Source of the DNA: a virus
DNA: 41,866 nt
Strand: one strand, 5' to 3'
Virus record (IMG/VR): IMGVR_UViG_3300044695_001740
Span: 1 to 41,866 of that record
How positions within the stretch are numbered: the stretch's first letter is position 1; each line of letters begins with the position of its first letter. Positions 2,226 through 8,216 of the stretch are shown one piece after another. The notes beneath the pieces were generated by a model that was not told the DNA's origin, did no database searches, and was given only the letters and a program-made list of their open reading frames with translations. Made by a program: the position numbers and the translations under genes.

Positions 2226-2443
2226 TGGAACAGAACAAGTTAATATCACTAGTATCACCAGGTGAAAGAAGTGAGTTAGTCAATCAGGTTAGGCTAGCTC
2301 TTAATGTTGCTGGCGATGACGTGTTGGATGCTCCTCTAGCCGAAGTGCTTAAGGGTTTGCAGCACCAGCTTTCCATCCCAGCAGTCGGGTGCATCAATAT
2401 AGCCACGCTGGATGCGCTCGCAGTTGCTCCACCAGAATGGTAG
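2225..2443 (+). CDS. Small peptidoglycan-binding-like protein
   Basis: 72 residues; the start overlaps the previous stop by one base (TAATG). Spacing of hydrophobics in LVNQVRLALNV, VLKGLQHQL and INIATLDAL resembles a minimal PG_binding_1 helical repeat (usual pattern: QxxL, then fQ, then TxxaL), with no enzymatic domain attached. As the last gene of the lysis segment it may target a partner to the wall. The resemblance is by eye and modest. A strong terminator follows within 10 bases. Confidence 0.6.
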   Translation: MEQNKLISLVSPGERSELVNQVRLALNVAGDDVLDAPLAEVLKGLQHQLSIPAVGCINIATLDALAVAPPEW

Positions 2444-2452
2444 GGCGAGAAG

Positions 2453-2487
2453 AGAGGGGGAATCAGAAATGGTTCCCCCTCTTTTTT
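2453..2487 (+). terminator. Rho-independent terminator closing the late/lysis transcript
   Basis: A perfect 10-bp stem AGAGGGGGAA / TTCCCCCTCT (2453-2462 with 2473-2482) with a 10-base loop is followed by a T run. It lies just after the stop of the 72-residue gene and should end the rightward late transcript. In the leftward sense it has no T run. Confidence 0.9.
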
Positions 2488-2491
2488 TATT

Positions 2492-2641
2492 TTAATAAGC
2501 AGATTTATCTTTTCTTAATATGCGGATAGCCCAGTCAAGCCCATGATTAAACCCATCTATCCATTCATAATCCTTATGTGTTTCAGGTAAGAGAGTCTTA
2601 GCAGACTCTATTCTTTTTATGAACTCTTCTATATCTTCCAT
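2492..2641 (-). CDS. Small leftward protein, 49 residues, unknown
   Basis: ATG at 2641 to TAA at 2492, beginning MEDIEEFIKRIESAKTLL. The protein is mixed-charge and looks helical, with an aromatic centre (YEWIDGFNHGLDWAIRIL). I do not recognise it. The frame is open for its full length between two hairpins, and a Shine-Dalgarno-like AAGAAGG lies 7 bases before the ATG, within a hairpin (2643-2663). It is the only leftward gene in this part of the genome, facing the end of the late transcript. It is supported by reading frame, start signal and plausible composition only. Confidence 0.6.
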   Translation of the reverse strand: MEDIEEFIKRIESAKTLLPETHKDYEWIDGFNHGLDWAIRILRKDKSAY

Positions 2642-2642
2642 C

Positions 2643-2663
2643 GGCTCGCCTTCTTGGCGAGCC
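2643..2663. promoter_or_regulatory. 8-bp hairpin at the start of the small leftward gene
   Basis: GGCTCGCC (2643-2650) pairs with GGCGAGCC (2656-2663) around a 5-base loop. Read leftward, the loop and 3' arm contain AAGAAGG, the likely ribosome binding site, and the stem ends one base before the ATG, so it could hide the start. Read rightward it is followed by TTTCCC and could be a weak terminator. Confidence 0.55.
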
Positions 2664-2732
2664 TTTCCCGCCCACCACCCCTCAACCCTATCAGATTATT
2701 GGTAAAGATGTTCGGCGTGTCTATGCAGGTTT

Positions 2733-2758
2733 CCTTTGGTTACCTTTGGTAACCTTGG
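2733..2758. promoter_or_regulatory. Operator-like repeats before the replication operon
   Basis: Tandem near-repeats CCTTTGGTTA, CCTTTGGTAA and CCTTGGTG (2733-2760) contain an inverted repeat GGTTACC ttt GGTAACC (2738-2744 with 2748-2754). They sit immediately before the first ATG (2762) of the replication operon, where there is no visible Shine-Dalgarno sequence. A repressor or activator site is the natural reading. A leaderless transcript starting close to the ATG would also fit and is common in actinobacteria. Confidence 0.45.
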
Positions 2759-2761
2759 TGT

Positions 2762-2956
2762 ATGAATCAACTTCCTCCTCATCGGTCTTACAGTCAACTT
2801 ACCACGTGGCAGTCCTGCCCTCAGAAATATTTCTTGAGTAAAGTAGCCATGGTTCCTGAGAAGCCAGCGGTCTATCTGGCTGCGGGGTCTGCAGTCCACA
2901 GCATGATTGAGTGGTTGAATCATGAGTTCTACAAGCAACAGCAGGCGAATGATTGA
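2762..2956 (+). CDS. RecB/Cas4-like Fe-S nuclease, N-terminal piece
   Basis: 64 residues corresponding to the first part of a PD-(D/E)XK nuclease of the RecB/Cas4 group: SYSQLTTWQSCPQKYFLSK (residues 9-27) carries the first cluster cysteine (Cys19), and GSAVHSMIE (42-50) the conserved His46 and Glu50. The chain stops at TGA 2954-2956; the catalytic part is encoded separately at 3157-3825. In related phages this nuclease is normally one polypeptide. The piece has no Shine-Dalgarno sequence and may be translated from a leaderless message. It could be a degraded remnant, but intact motifs and tight packing with the next two genes argue for a two-chain enzyme. Confidence 0.75.
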   Translation: MNQLPPHRSYSQLTTWQSCPQKYFLSKVAMVPEKPAVYLAAGSAVHSMIEWLNHEFYKQQQAND

Positions 2957-3170
2957 CCAACGTGGTATACCCAGTAATGAGTGTATCAATTGCGGTAGCA
3001 ATGTCCAAGTAGTACGTGCTATATTTCAGGACTACGAACTTGTTATGTGGTTTACCGATAGCTTCTGCGGTACTTGTGGTTCTCCTATGACAACGCCTAC
3101 ACCAGTCGACCACCCCGACTACGTGAAGCCAGAGCGACCAGAGGAAGAAGAAGACGATGAGTTTAACTGA
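2949..3170 (+). CDS. Small zinc-ribbon protein between the nuclease halves
   Basis: 73 residues from ATG 2949, which overlaps the previous stop by 8 bases; an upstream in-frame ATG at 2922 would give 82. Two CxxC knuckles (CINCGS and CGTCGS) about 30 residues apart form a classic zinc ribbon. The C-terminal tail is acidic (PEEEEDDEFN). The stop lies 14 bases inside the next gene. It sits between the two parts of the RecB/Cas4-like nuclease in a third reading frame. It may be an accessory subunit of that nuclease or an inserted passenger gene; the sequence does not decide. Confidence 0.75.
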   Translation: MIDQRGIPSNECINCGSNVQVVRAIFQDYELVMWFTDSFCGTCGSPMTTPTPVDHPDYVKPERPEEEEDDEFN

Positions 3171-3825
3171 GAAGTGGTTAGAAGTATTTAATGATGAAGT
3201 AAAATCCATAGAGGAACAATCAGGTATTCCATCGACGGAGTGGAAGACGGCTGGTCGTAAGACCGCTGCTCGACCAGATGGAGAAGACTTATCGTTCTGG
3301 CAAAGCGATGGGCTCAAGCAGGTTGAGTCGTACCAGAAATGGTACGAGCAGTCTGGTTGGAAAATTGCCACAATGCCTGACGGTCGTCCTGGAATCGAGT
3401 GGTCGGCAGATGTACATTTCGGAGGTACACCTGTTCGATTTATTGTAGATGCCATCTATCAAGTAGGGGAAGACTTGGTAATCGTGGACTACAAGACTGG
3501 TTCCAGGACACCGTTTGGTGTAATCCAGAATGGCTTATATGCCAGCGGTATTGAAAAGATTTTTGGAATCCGCCCTAAGTGGGGCGCATTCTTTATGACT
3601 CGCAAAGGCGAGCTTGATGATTTGGTCGACCTATCCCACCTCAGTATAGATTACTACGAGCATGCATTTGCTTCTATGAATCATGGTGTACTCAACGGTT
3701 GGTTCCCAACATTCGTTGGAGAAAACTGTAGAATGTGTAGCTACATGGACAAGTGTCCAGCATGGGGCTCAAAAGATTTCCCATTACAAATACCAACAAC
3801 AGGGAAAGAAAAGGAGAGAAAGTAG
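3157..3825 (+). CDS. RecB/Cas4-like Fe-S nuclease, catalytic C-terminal piece
   Basis: 222 residues with the PD-(D/E)XK catalytic set: Asp98 in RFIVDAIY, Asp111-x-Lys113 in VIVDYKTG, and a QNGLYA motif (Gln124) typical of RecB-family exonucleases. Three cysteines follow in CRMCSYMDKCPA (Cys191, Cys194, Cys200). In Cas4 and AddB-type nucleases the 4Fe-4S cluster uses one N-terminal and three C-terminal cysteines; here the N-terminal one is on the separate product of 2762-2956. Residues 1-15 (MSLTEKWLEVFNDEV) look like the natural continuation of helix WLNHEF at the end of that piece. A role in DNA end processing for recombination or replication is inferred from the family. Confidence 0.85.
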   Translation: MSLTEKWLEVFNDEVKSIEEQSGIPSTEWKTAGRKTAARPDGEDLSFWQSDGLKQVESYQKWYEQSGWKIATMPDGRPGIEWSADVHFGGTPVRFIVDAIYQVGEDLVIVDYKTGSRTPFGVIQNGLYASGIEKIFGIRPKWGAFFMTRKGELDDLVDLSHLSIDYYEHAFASMNHGVLNGWFPTFVGENCRMCSYMDKCPAWGSKDFPLQIPTTGKEKERK

Positions 3826-4302
3826 ATGACTGAATCTATGTTCTCGTATACAGGTAAGTTGAATTCAACTGACCTATTCACCGTCCGAGGTAATAGTGTT
3901 AGTGAGTTTAGAGCTAACCTAACCGCAGCAGTCGAAGCAATCGCTGAGGCTGTGCAACTACAAGCATCACTGTCTGGTCGCGTTGCAGCACCAGCAGGAA
4001 ATGCATACACACCTAACGCTGAGCAAGCAATCCAGATGTTGCAGGATGCGGGTCTTAACCCACAGCCTGTAGTCGCTGGCACAACCCCACAATCAATTGA
4101 GGTTGTCAAAGATAAGTACGGTAACGAATGGACATATGGACATCCAGATGCACCAGACCTACCAGACGGACGTGGCAAGTACGCCAAGAAGAAGGGCGTA
4201 TCAAAAGCAGGCAAGGCTTATGTTGGTTGGTTTGACCCAGCCAAGGGACCGAAGCCGTTCAAGCCTGGTGTTACTGAAGCCGAAACTATTTGGGCTAAGT
4301 AA
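3826..4302 (+). CDS. Conserved-looking replication-region protein, unknown
   Basis: 158 residues; the ATG directly follows the previous stop and has GGAGAGAAAG upstream. The N-terminal 50 residues look alpha/beta (MFSYTGKLN, VRGNSVSEFRANL), followed by an Ala/Gln-rich helix and linker. The C-terminal half is Gly/Lys/Pro-rich (YGNEWTYGHPDAPD, GRGKYAKKKGV, YVGWFDPAKG). Placement between a nuclease and a RecA-fold ATPase suggests single-strand DNA binding or a recombination accessory role, but I see no OB-fold signature and do not assign one. Confidence 0.8.
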   Translation: MTESMFSYTGKLNSTDLFTVRGNSVSEFRANLTAAVEAIAEAVQLQASLSGRVAAPAGNAYTPNAEQAIQMLQDAGLNPQPVVAGTTPQSIEVVKDKYGNEWTYGHPDAPDLPDGRGKYAKKKGVSKAGKAYVGWFDPAKGPKPFKPGVTEAETIWAK

Positions 4303-4304
4303 TC

Positions 4305-5138
4305 ATGCGTAGCCTATTGCAAGTAGTGGGTGTTGAATCACCAGCTGGTATTCAGTTACCAGAAATCCTACCTCAACTCACCGCCAGTCAAGTTACTTTC
4401 CGTCAAGCGCAATTGCATTTGATTGCAGGTCAACCAGGCGGAGGAAAGACACTGCTTGCATTATGGTACGCGATTACATCTAAGGTTCCATCGCTCTACA
4501 TATCAGCAGACTCTGACTCCAGAACAATTGCAACTCGTGCAGGTGCAATCATTATGGATAAGGAAGTTGCTAACGTAGAGAAGTTGATGGATACAGATGC
4601 GAGTGTTCTCCTTGAGGATGCTCTTGCTGACGGCGCGAGCCATGTGCGATTCGCCTTCGACCCAGCACCTTCTCTTCAAGATATTGAAGAGGAGATAGAA
4701 GCGTGGATTGAATTGCATGGCTCCGCCCCAGCAGCAGTATATGTAGATAACTTAATGAACGTCGCTGCAGCTAGCGACAATGAGTGGACTGCATTGCGTG
4801 ATGCAATGTCAGCGTTCCACTATATGGCACGTGAGTATGAGTCAGCATTTATTGTGCTACACCATGTGTCTGAGAACGAAAGAATGTCTAAGCCAAACTA
4901 TCCAGCACCACGCAAAGCGTTGATGGGTAAGGTTGCTGCTCTACCTGAACTGGTATTGAGCGTAGCGTTAGACAGTGGAGCAAACGCTTATCGCGTTGCC
5001 GTTGTAAAGAATCGTCATGGTAAGGCTGACCCAAATGCAGAGGAGTATGTAACACTGGCAGCAGAGGCTAGCAAGATGGCTCTCTATAATTCCTCAGCGG
5101 AACTGTTCCGTCAAAGGACATTAAGTCAGTGGCAGTAG
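4305..5138 (+). CDS. RecA-fold ATPase, DnaB-like helicase
   Basis: 277 residues with Walker A GQPGGGKT (42-49), a following strand PSLYISADSDSRT as in DnaB/RecA-type ATPases, and Walker B AAVYVDNL (143-150). LHHVSE (about 185-190) fits the post-Walker-B sensor region. It is much shorter than bacterial DnaB and lacks the N-terminal primase-interaction domain, like the small DnaB-like proteins of mycobacteriophages. It would provide replicative helicase or recombinase activity with the divided primase downstream. The start is two bases after the previous stop. Confidence 0.82.
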   Translation: MRSLLQVVGVESPAGIQLPEILPQLTASQVTFRQAQLHLIAGQPGGGKTLLALWYAITSKVPSLYISADSDSRTIATRAGAIIMDKEVANVEKLMDTDASVLLEDALADGASHVRFAFDPAPSLQDIEEEIEAWIELHGSAPAAVYVDNLMNVAAASDNEWTALRDAMSAFHYMAREYESAFIVLHHVSENERMSKPNYPAPRKALMGKVAALPELVLSVALDSGANAYRVAVVKNRHGKADPNAEEYVTLAAEASKMALYNSSAELFRQRTLSQWQ

Positions 5139-6712: not shown

Positions 6713-7045
6713 ATGAATCAGTCTGAGTTTCTTGAAGCGGTCTTTAATCATTACGGATTGACCTTGCCACTTGGTGGGGAGAAATCAATCTTGTGTCCTG
6801 TACATGATGATTCACGTAAGTCTGCTTCGGTTAATTCAGACAAGGGACTCTGGGTATGTTATGCGTGTAACGCAAGTGGTTCTGGTATACAGATAATCAT
6901 GGGTCGTGAAAACTTAACATACCCAGAGGCTCGTTCATGGGCAGAGAAGAACATTGGAAAAGAATCCAAAGCTTCAACGCCAACACGTGGACGTAAGAAG
7001 GGCAACAATCGGTGGACACCACCGAGATTGAGGGCTGCCCTATGA
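6713..7045 (+). CDS. DNA primase, zinc-binding domain (separate polypeptide)
   Basis: 110 residues containing a CHC2-type primase zinc finger: Cys28-x2-His31, then Cys49-x2-Cys52 (CPVHDDSRK, WVCYACNASGSG). This domain reads the template in DnaG-type primases. A basic tail (GRKKGNNRW) follows. The TOPRIM domain is encoded separately at 7569-8216, after the intervening protease-like gene, so the primase is in two chains. Divided primases occur in some actinophages. The stop overlaps the next start (ATGA). Confidence 0.88.
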   Translation: MNQSEFLEAVFNHYGLTLPLGGEKSILCPVHDDSRKSASVNSDKGLWVCYACNASGSGIQIIMGRENLTYPEARSWAEKNIGKESKASTPTRGRKKGNNRWTPPRLRAAL

Positions 7046-7572
7046 CAACTATCGTTGGCATCCAACAAGACAATGGCTGTATGTTAGTAGCTGATTCACG
7101 CACCACTGCTGGCAATAGACCATACTCTCATCCAACAGTTACTAAGATTAATAAACGTGGTAAGTGGTTAGTCGCAGGCGCTGGTGATGTGCAACCATGC
7201 GATGTGGTTCAACATATATGGAAACCGCCAGCCATCCCAGCTAATACTAAAGATGAATATCATTTCATGATTACAACTGTCGCTCCTAGCATTAGAGAAT
7301 GCATCAAGGAATCTGGCTACGTGCCAGACAAGGATGATGCTGATGCTGGGTTTGAATTGCTACTTGCAATTAACGGAACCATCTACCAAGTAGATGATTC
7401 CTACTCTGTATACCTGCGAGACGATGGGCTGTATGGCATAGGGTCTGGTTCATCTTGGGCATTGGGCGCACTGGCAGTAGGTGCAACATGGAAGCAGGCT
7501 ATGCAGACCGCAGCAAAGAACGATGTGTATACTGCTCCCCCATTCATAGTGCATAGGCAGGAAAAGAAATGA
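7042..7572 (+). CDS. HslV/proteasome-beta-like threonine protease
   Basis: 176 residues from ATG 7042, which overlaps the preceding stop (ATGA). The N-terminus MTTIVGIQQ is almost that of bacterial HslV (MTTIVSVRR). Removal of Met would expose the nucleophilic Thr1. Asp17 (ADSRTTAG) is at the position expected for the family, a lysine (TKINK) takes the Lys33 role, and GIGSGSSWALGAL matches the later SG loop. There is no propeptide, as in HslV. No HslU-type unfoldase is visible in the genome. Substrate and role are unknown: it could degrade host or phage proteins, or process virion proteins. The assignment of the Ntn-hydrolase family is strong; activity is inferred. Confidence 0.85.
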   Translation: MTTIVGIQQDNGCMLVADSRTTAGNRPYSHPTVTKINKRGKWLVAGAGDVQPCDVVQHIWKPPAIPANTKDEYHFMITTVAPSIRECIKESGYVPDKDDADAGFELLLAINGTIYQVDDSYSVYLRDDGLYGIGSGSSWALGALAVGATWKQAMQTAAKNDVYTAPPFIVHRQEKK

Positions 7573-8216
7573 GAACAAACCCCAAGCTCATTGAACTTTG
7601 GACACGAGCAGCAAAGACTTATCACGAATCATTGGCTGGTTCACCAGCCGAGGCATACCTTGAGAAGCGTGGCATCTTAGATGGCGCTGAAAGATTTCAA
7701 CTTGGCTATGTAACAGAGCCAGTAGCAGGTCATGAAGACAGACTCAAGCACCACCTATCCATCCCCTATATAACAGAGGCTGGTGTAGTTGGGTTTAAGT
7801 TTCGTCGCATCGATGATGGTGACCCTAAGTACATGATACCTACTGGACAGAAGCATCACCTGTATAACGTGGGTGCAATCCTACATGCAGTAAGGGAGGT
7901 GTTAATAGTTGAAGGCGAAATTGATGCTATATCTGCAACTCTCGCTGGTCATCCTGCTGTCGCTGTTGCTGGCGTTAACGCTTGGAAGCCTTATTTCTCA
8001 CGTTGTTTCGATGGTATAGGTAGAGTAATCATTGCTACTGATAATGATGTTAAAGAAGATGGGTCTAACCCAGGGCAGGACTTAGCCCGACGATTGCAAG
8101 ATGCAATCCCTCAAGCAATCCGCGTGTCGCTACCGCCTGATAGCGACATCAATAGTATAATTGTGCGCCAAGGAGCTCAAGCTTTAACAGATTTGATTAA
8201 AGCATTAGACGATTAG
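7569..8216 (+). CDS. DNA primase, TOPRIM catalytic domain (separate polypeptide)
   Basis: 215 residues. The N-terminal part (PAEAYLEKRGI, FQLGYV, LSIPYI, VVGFKFR) is the usual DnaG core entry. The TOPRIM domain follows with VLIVEGEIDA (Glu115, Glu117) and IATDND (Asp158, Asp160), the metal-binding residues. There is no N-terminal zinc domain; that is the product of 6713-7045. It should synthesise RNA primers with that partner and the DnaB-like ATPase. The start overlaps the protease-like gene by ATGA, so all three are translationally linked. Confidence 0.88.
   Translation: MRTNPKLIELWTRAAKTYHESLAGSPAEAYLEKRGILDGAERFQLGYVTEPVAGHEDRLKHHLSIPYITEAGVVGFKFRRIDDGDPKYMIPTGQKHHLYNVGAILHAVREVLIVEGEIDAISATLAGHPAVAVAGVNAWKPYFSRCFDGIGRVIIATDNDVKEDGSNPGQDLARRLQDAIPQAIRVSLPPDSDINSIIVRQGAQALTDLIKALDD

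Follow-up and report, generated by a model that had tools for sequence, protein, structure and literature searches.

Nucleases of the Cas4/AddB/Exo V group carry an iron ‘staple’, an Fe-S cluster held by one N-terminal and three C-terminal cysteines, which is established for the family (PMC3466216; PMC5704561); for DUF3799, the metal is possibly Zn instead of Fe-S (PMC3466216). In the described iron-staple nucleases, such as Sso0001, AdnAB, Dna2, and ACE1, the first cysteine and the other three are located on one chain, and the staple of the Cas4, AddB, Dna2, and Exo V enzymes is thought to hold one chain together; a natural two-chain version would be a direct test of this role. Actinophages encode single-chain exonucleases of this kind (pfam12705/PHROG 1870), e.g., Phranny gp73, Remus gp82 (from a Gordonia phage), and Ponzi gp36 (from a Streptomyces phage), in each of which the enzyme is one polypeptide and its gene contains no inner gene. 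Phage enzymes that are split and yet work are known from T4-like phages: Aeh1 NrdA keeps its activity, and the DNA polymerase pieces 43A and 43B of phage 25 co-purify with activity (PMC2988022). In these cases, as in the T4 topoisomerase (gp39/gp60), two chains are co-encoded with a gene between them. A split Cas4-family nuclease was not described in any of the mostly open-licence papers covered by our literature search.

The window, i.e., the whole stretch of viral DNA that was analyzed (an IMG/VR virus record, 41.9 kb, GC about 45%), encodes a putative nuclease with the fold and cysteine layout of the iron-staple enzymes and with the domain, the motifs, and the genomic place of the single-chain actinophage exonucleases, but on two polypeptides instead of one. 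The features of the locus are as follows:

2728-2761, + strand: presumed control region of N, with an inverted repeat (2738-2754) and a conserved GGCGTGTC block; putative function
2762-2956, + strand: N, 64-aa N-terminal half of a Cas4-family exonuclease, with the Fe-S cysteine Cys19, GSAVH (His46), and Glu50
2922-3170, + strand: Z, 82-aa zinc-ribbon-like ORF, with C21-x2-C24 ... C49-x2-C52 and an acidic tail
3157-3825, + strand: C, 222-aa catalytic half, with D98, D111-x-K113, Q124, Y128, and C191/C194/C200
3826-4302, + strand: 158-aa ORF after C, of no Pfam or PHROG family, in the position of the 127-aa ORF of phages E7 and F5
4305-5138, + strand: DnaB-like RecA-fold helicase (phrog_243, 1e-73)

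N, Z, and C are read in three different frames and overlap by 35 nt (N/Z) and 14 nt (Z/C), with the start of Z inside N and its stop inside C. An earlier note on this DNA, made from the sequence alone, had claimed exactly this layout of a 64-aa, a zinc-ribbon, and a 222-aa ORF, the middle one in a third frame and overlapping both neighbours, and its coordinates and frames proved correct.

N and C correspond to consecutive parts of one enzyme. In the Pfam profile PDDEXK_1 (PF12705), N covers positions 3-50 (29.2 bits) and C positions 91-247 (29.4 bits), each of them separately above the curated cut-off of 22. The profile phrog_1870 (‘exonuclease’) is tiled by N (11-69) and C (74-306, 8e-63) with no gap worth noting, and N additionally matches phrog_69 (2e-10). 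N plus C can be aligned end to end with single-chain exonucleases from mycobacteriophages as well as Gordonia and Streptomyces phages; identity to these is about 25-35% for C and reaches about 58% for N. For instance, the start of gp73 of Mycobacterium phage Phranny, a 271-aa Cas4 exonuclease, matches N, with C following directly, and the initial Met-Ser-Leu of C aligns with an internal ‘MSLE’ of the single-chain relatives. Judging from these alignments, no part of the enzyme appears to be missing between N and C. A second full-length PDDEXK_1 gene was not found in the window.

The GxxxH, D, D-x-K, and Q-x3-Y motifs are all present and conserved, and they are spread over the two chains: C19 and H46 on N, together with D98, D111-x-K113, Q124, and C191/C194/C200 on C, form invariant columns in the aligned relatives. 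The earlier note had already read the division of Cys19 and GSAVH from the catalytic residues and the three remaining cysteines. In this superfamily, the GxxxH histidine serves as a metal ligand of the active site; since it is located on N as well, the catalytic centre would be divided along with the cluster. Both proteins together thus probably complete the metal cluster and the active site. In this respect the window differs from the T4-like genes in pieces: its break runs through a set of Fe-S ligands and through an active site, and the gene between the pieces is not a homing endonuclease. By analogy with DUF3799, the metal at the four-cysteine site of N and C could be Zn rather than Fe-S. 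With regard to classification, the family's four-cysteine layout is present and near-invariant, whereas the nuclease is encoded by two genes in every locus of both split groups (see below). A single chain is the usual property of the family and not a chemical requirement, and the locus was therefore filed as a split variant of the pfam12705 nucleases. It does not qualify as CRISPR-associated Cas4 (TIGR00372), with 27.0 bits for C and 14.5 for N against an equivalog threshold of at least 65; even a single-chain relative, L218, reaches only 48.4.

Structural models agree with this assignment. The AlphaFold2 model of the single-chain L218 (mean pLDDT 94.8) contains helices at residues 8-16, 18-26, 37-52, and 59-80, and the natural break falls within the loop 53-58 between helices 37-52 and 59-80. 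When C of the window was modelled alone, with its own relatives as alignment, a confident Cas4 core was obtained (pLDDT about 93-95 at residues 81-110), and the cysteine region (residues 187-195) dropped to about or below pLDDT 50, while the same region reaches about 91-92 in L218. The sequences and alignments differ between the two models, so that the drop can be read as suggestive only. Both models match Cas4-family structures, best of all the Argonaute-associated Cas4 ACE1 (9iab, 9iac) and AdnAB, followed by Dna2 and CRISPR Cas4 (Foldseek for C).

The split is conserved far beyond the window. IMG/VR was scanned with C, with Z, and with profiles, which yielded 222 N-Z-C loci and 163 single-chain loci without Z; the remaining four loci are all cut by a contig end. 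Some contigs had been fetched repeatedly, and after removal of duplicates the N-Z-C loci amounted to 114 distinct nucleotide versions and the single-chain ones to 111 distinct proteins, the latter being the single-chain relatives that the earlier note had predicted. The N-Z-C layout is found in all 114 distinct window-type loci, and Z is absent from all 111 single-chain relatives. Given enough upstream sequence, no relative has C without N, and the apparent exceptions are contig ends. The frame relation of N and Z is constant: the Z frame opens 157 nt past the N start in 94 of the 114 loci, and the start codon is nearly always at 160. Cys19 is kept in 114/114, GSAVH and His46 in 113/114 each, the three C-terminal cysteines and D[YF]KTG in 112/114 each, and the Z motif in 113/114; exceptions comprise two loci that are cut short and one (L320) with a harmless change beside the Z motif. 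Outside the overlaps, median dN/dS amounts to 0.029 (N), 0.065 (Z), and 0.101 (C), and it stays below 1 in every pair. All three genes are under strong purifying selection, and their layout is far beyond chance.

These data bear directly on whether the split could reflect mistakes of sequencing or assembly, or the decay of the gene. Damaging changes do occur, namely an in-frame 26-aa deletion in N that removes GSAVH (L144) and the replacement of the D of DYKTG (D111) by V (L053), and these two genomes may be inactive or mis-assembled. However, independent assemblies provide about 210 distinct split loci, and two genomes of cultured phages show the split too; the Fe-S cysteines, the GxxxH histidine, and the D...DxK residues are almost invariant, and dN/dS is as low as 0.03/0.07/0.10. 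Error or decay is thereby refuted for the family and retains a negligible probability, in keeping with the earlier note's own argument from intact motifs. An 82.7-kb viral contig, IMGVR_UViG_3300027754_000069, contains the split locus twice, in differing copies (L023 and L340) about 40 kb apart, and may represent two phage genomes joined in assembly.

The two cultured genomes were reached through the helicase. The DnaB-like helicase of the window is closest to that of OX376640 and OX376641, the cultured ‘Ca. Planktophila’ phages LanE43-AprE7 and AprF5 (E7 and F5 for short). Both records (OX376640.1, OX376641.1) lack annotation and bear only the name ‘Caudovirales sp. ct2KA10’, which puts them out of reach of name-based searches. 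In E7 and F5, the exonuclease is encoded in two pieces, one of 61 aa that contains the cysteine and GGRAFH and one of 202 aa that contains the remainder. The pieces are separated at the same break point as in the window and have the same neighbours. In contrast to the window, the two pieces overlap by 17 nt and have no Z between them; identity to the window is 29% for C and 38% for N. This E7 type comprises 96 distinct loci (E7, F5, and 94 more), none of them fused. N and C overlap directly in 91 of the 96, mostly in the +1 frame, and 300-959 nt of unrelated ORFs lie between them in the other five. The nuclease residues of N and C are kept in nearly all E7-type loci too, and dN/dS is about 0.07 (N) and 0.10 (C). 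Unlike the T4-like cases, the split is kept throughout two entire phage groups while the cargo changes. The split of the gene in phages of freshwater actinobacteria is real and very widely conserved, and as cultured ‘Ca. Planktophila’ phages carry it, infection experiments are possible.

Could programmed frameshifting, ribosome bypassing, or splicing nevertheless join N and C into one polypeptide? The direct N/C overlap in the +1 frame that prevails among E7-type loci would by itself permit a frameshift. However, a conserved ORF separates N and C in 114 loci and 300-959 nt of other ORFs do so in five E7-type loci; whole genes between the two make a frameshifted fusion product implausible there. 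Moreover, no single N-to-C shift is consistent across the clades, and a search of the region returned no intron family. Altogether, a fused product is very improbable. Where genes intervene, fusion by frameshift or bypass was ruled out by the intervening ORFs and the changing distances. An intron or intein split was rejected as well: no Rfam intron is found in 2400-4400, and the halves lie in different frames with their own starts.

Alternatively, N and C might have become independent, N taking on another job, e.g., as a small factor that binds DNA or protein, and C working alone without the fourth cysteine. Small phage ORFs are often repurposed, but almost every locus of the two distant clades retains on N exactly the residues specific to the nuclease, Cys19 and GxxxH, and the three partner cysteines are retained on C. 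These residues should have been freed if interdependence had been lost. We consider independence unlikely. The preferred explanation, held with good confidence, is that the locus encodes an actinophage ssDNA exonuclease of the Cas4/AddB type that has undergone gene fission, with N and C forming an obligate heterodimer that shares an inter-chain cluster and active site. The gene would have been broken in the loop that links the GxxxH helix to the following one. N, with three helices, Cys1, and the GxxxH histidine, and C, with the PD-(D/E)XK core and three cysteines, would then be translated separately from one operon mRNA, probably coupled through the gene overlaps. N and C would re-associate and most likely complete one four-cysteine Fe-S cluster and a metal active site across their interface, so that the cluster would physically bridge two chains. 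This two-chain nuclease is predicted to act in phage DNA replication or recombination, beside the DnaB-like helicase. After the split, or with it, the gap would have become a slot for small genes. By analogy, Aeh1 NrdA and 43A/43B of phage 25 would be the nearest functional precedents, and the locus would offer a ready-made split nuclease whose activity depends on assembly. A more specific version, which we put forward tentatively, is that the nuclease is obligately two-chained, with the cluster built from both proteins, the histidine supplied by the small chain, and activity dependent on assembly, which the clade-specific proteins of the slot, Z and X (see below), would tune.

What the gap contains differs between the groups: nothing in most E7/F5-type loci, Z in the window's clade, and X, with or without Y, in a few. 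X is an ORF of 107-114 aa, lysine-rich and then coiled-coil-like, that occupies the N/C gap of a few E7-type phages (L428:2045-3017, L456:2682-3011, L462:2661-3005); the gap of L428 contains also the 218-aa ORF Y, which has only a sub-threshold match to DUF7574. X is unrelated to Z despite sharing its slot. As to Z itself, the zinc ribbon of the earlier note is putative: the four cysteines (CxxC...CxxC) are invariant in the relatives, and the Pfam zinc-ribbon matches stay below threshold. Z homologues were found neither among GenBank phages nor in the PDB. Four-cysteine ORFs in the vicinity of single-chain genes offered no clear donor; they are mostly endonuclease-VII-like or small ribbons unrelated to Z.

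The invariable presence of Z between N and C in the window's clade, its overlapping start and stop, the purifying selection, and the four invariant cysteines might point to an enzyme of three chains, with Z as a structural or regulatory subunit that, e.g., holds N and C together or contacts ssDNA. Against this speak the E7/F5-type phages, which are split without Z, the unrelated X in the same slot, and the fact that inheritance of the operon alone can explain a conserved position. A subunit role for Z is accordingly a minority possibility, and the related proposal that its zinc site substitutes for the lost covalent link is similarly doubtful. The occurrence of the same split in E7 and F5 without Z indicates that Z is not needed for the split; of the earlier note's reading, the split nuclease with a gene between its halves holds for the window's clade, but Z does not belong to the split as such. 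The probable role of Z is that of an accessory protein, co-translated but not a catalytic part of the enzyme.

A slot with variable cargo at one and the same point is also what might be expected if a mobile homing endonuclease had caused the split, the present inserts being remnants or replacements. Indeed, there is precedent in MobE of Aeh1 nrdA and MobA of T4 gene 60 (PMC2988022). However, none of the inserts is a homing endonuclease, an insert is absent altogether from most E7-type loci, and the N/C overlap there is as expected of a simple frameshift with an internal start. Such an origin is rather improbable. A homing-endonuclease insert at present was rejected, as Z, X, and Y have no HNH, GIY-YIG, or LAGLIDADG match. 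The fission point has thus been used repeatedly as a slot for new genes with no homing endonuclease in the cases seen, which extends the idea of genes in pieces.

The split is old, given that C of the two split groups is only 29% identical. In a maximum-likelihood tree, both groups are on one side of a branch with support of 100/99, and moving the window's clade to either single-chain group is 17-21 log units worse (AU p 0.14 and 0.045, with long branches). These sequence comparisons favour one ancient fission, although the alternative with an AU p of 0.14 is not rejected; two fissions at the same loop are possible. The scans directly returned no intermediates: what they found belonged either to the window's clade (identity of at least about 74%) or to the single-chain relatives (about 35%).

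Upstream of N, the GGCGTGTC block is conserved in relatives, and between this block and the ATG of N lies the inverted repeat GGTTACC-TTT-GGTAACC (2738-2754; 3 matches versus 0.08 expected). A Shine-Dalgarno sequence ahead of N was not found in region 2728-2761 of the window, whereas a purine-rich stretch resembling a Shine-Dalgarno sequence (GAGGAAG) accompanies the starts of C in the subclade of the window. Many relatives show a TATnAT resembling a -10 element about 10 nt ahead of the ATG of N, again without a Shine-Dalgarno sequence. Region 2700-2761 is possibly an operator combined with a leaderless mRNA. Further upstream, GGGGGAA...TTCCCCC followed by a T-run (2446-2490) is a likely intrinsic terminator, which would end the upstream transcription unit and precedes the replication-gene operon, whose first gene is N.

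Single-chain actinophages (Phranny, Remus, HINdeR, Ponzi, and L218) have the gene order exonuclease, usually small ORFs, and DnaB-like helicase; in the window, the order is N, Z, C, the 158-aa ORF, and the DnaB-like helicase. WhiB, sigma-factor, and glycosyltransferase genes are present in the window, and a whiB-like factor, a sigma-70 factor, and a glycosyltransferase were reported in the paper on LanE43-AprE7 and AprF5 (PMC10202952), the text of which mentions neither an exonuclease nor a split. From this gene content, shared with phages of ‘Ca. Nanopelagicales’, we infer an actinobacterial and probably Nanopelagicales-like host; a scan of GTDB genomes for the host returned no relative of C.

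The primase of the window is in pieces as well, with a zinc-binding part at 6713-7045 (phrog_47 31-116) and a TOPRIM part at 7569-8216 (phrog_47 130-334). An ORF of the HslV peptidase family (7012-7572) overlaps both, a pattern as in the nuclease, and in the Streptomyces phage Ponzi two primase genes lie next to each other and overlap.
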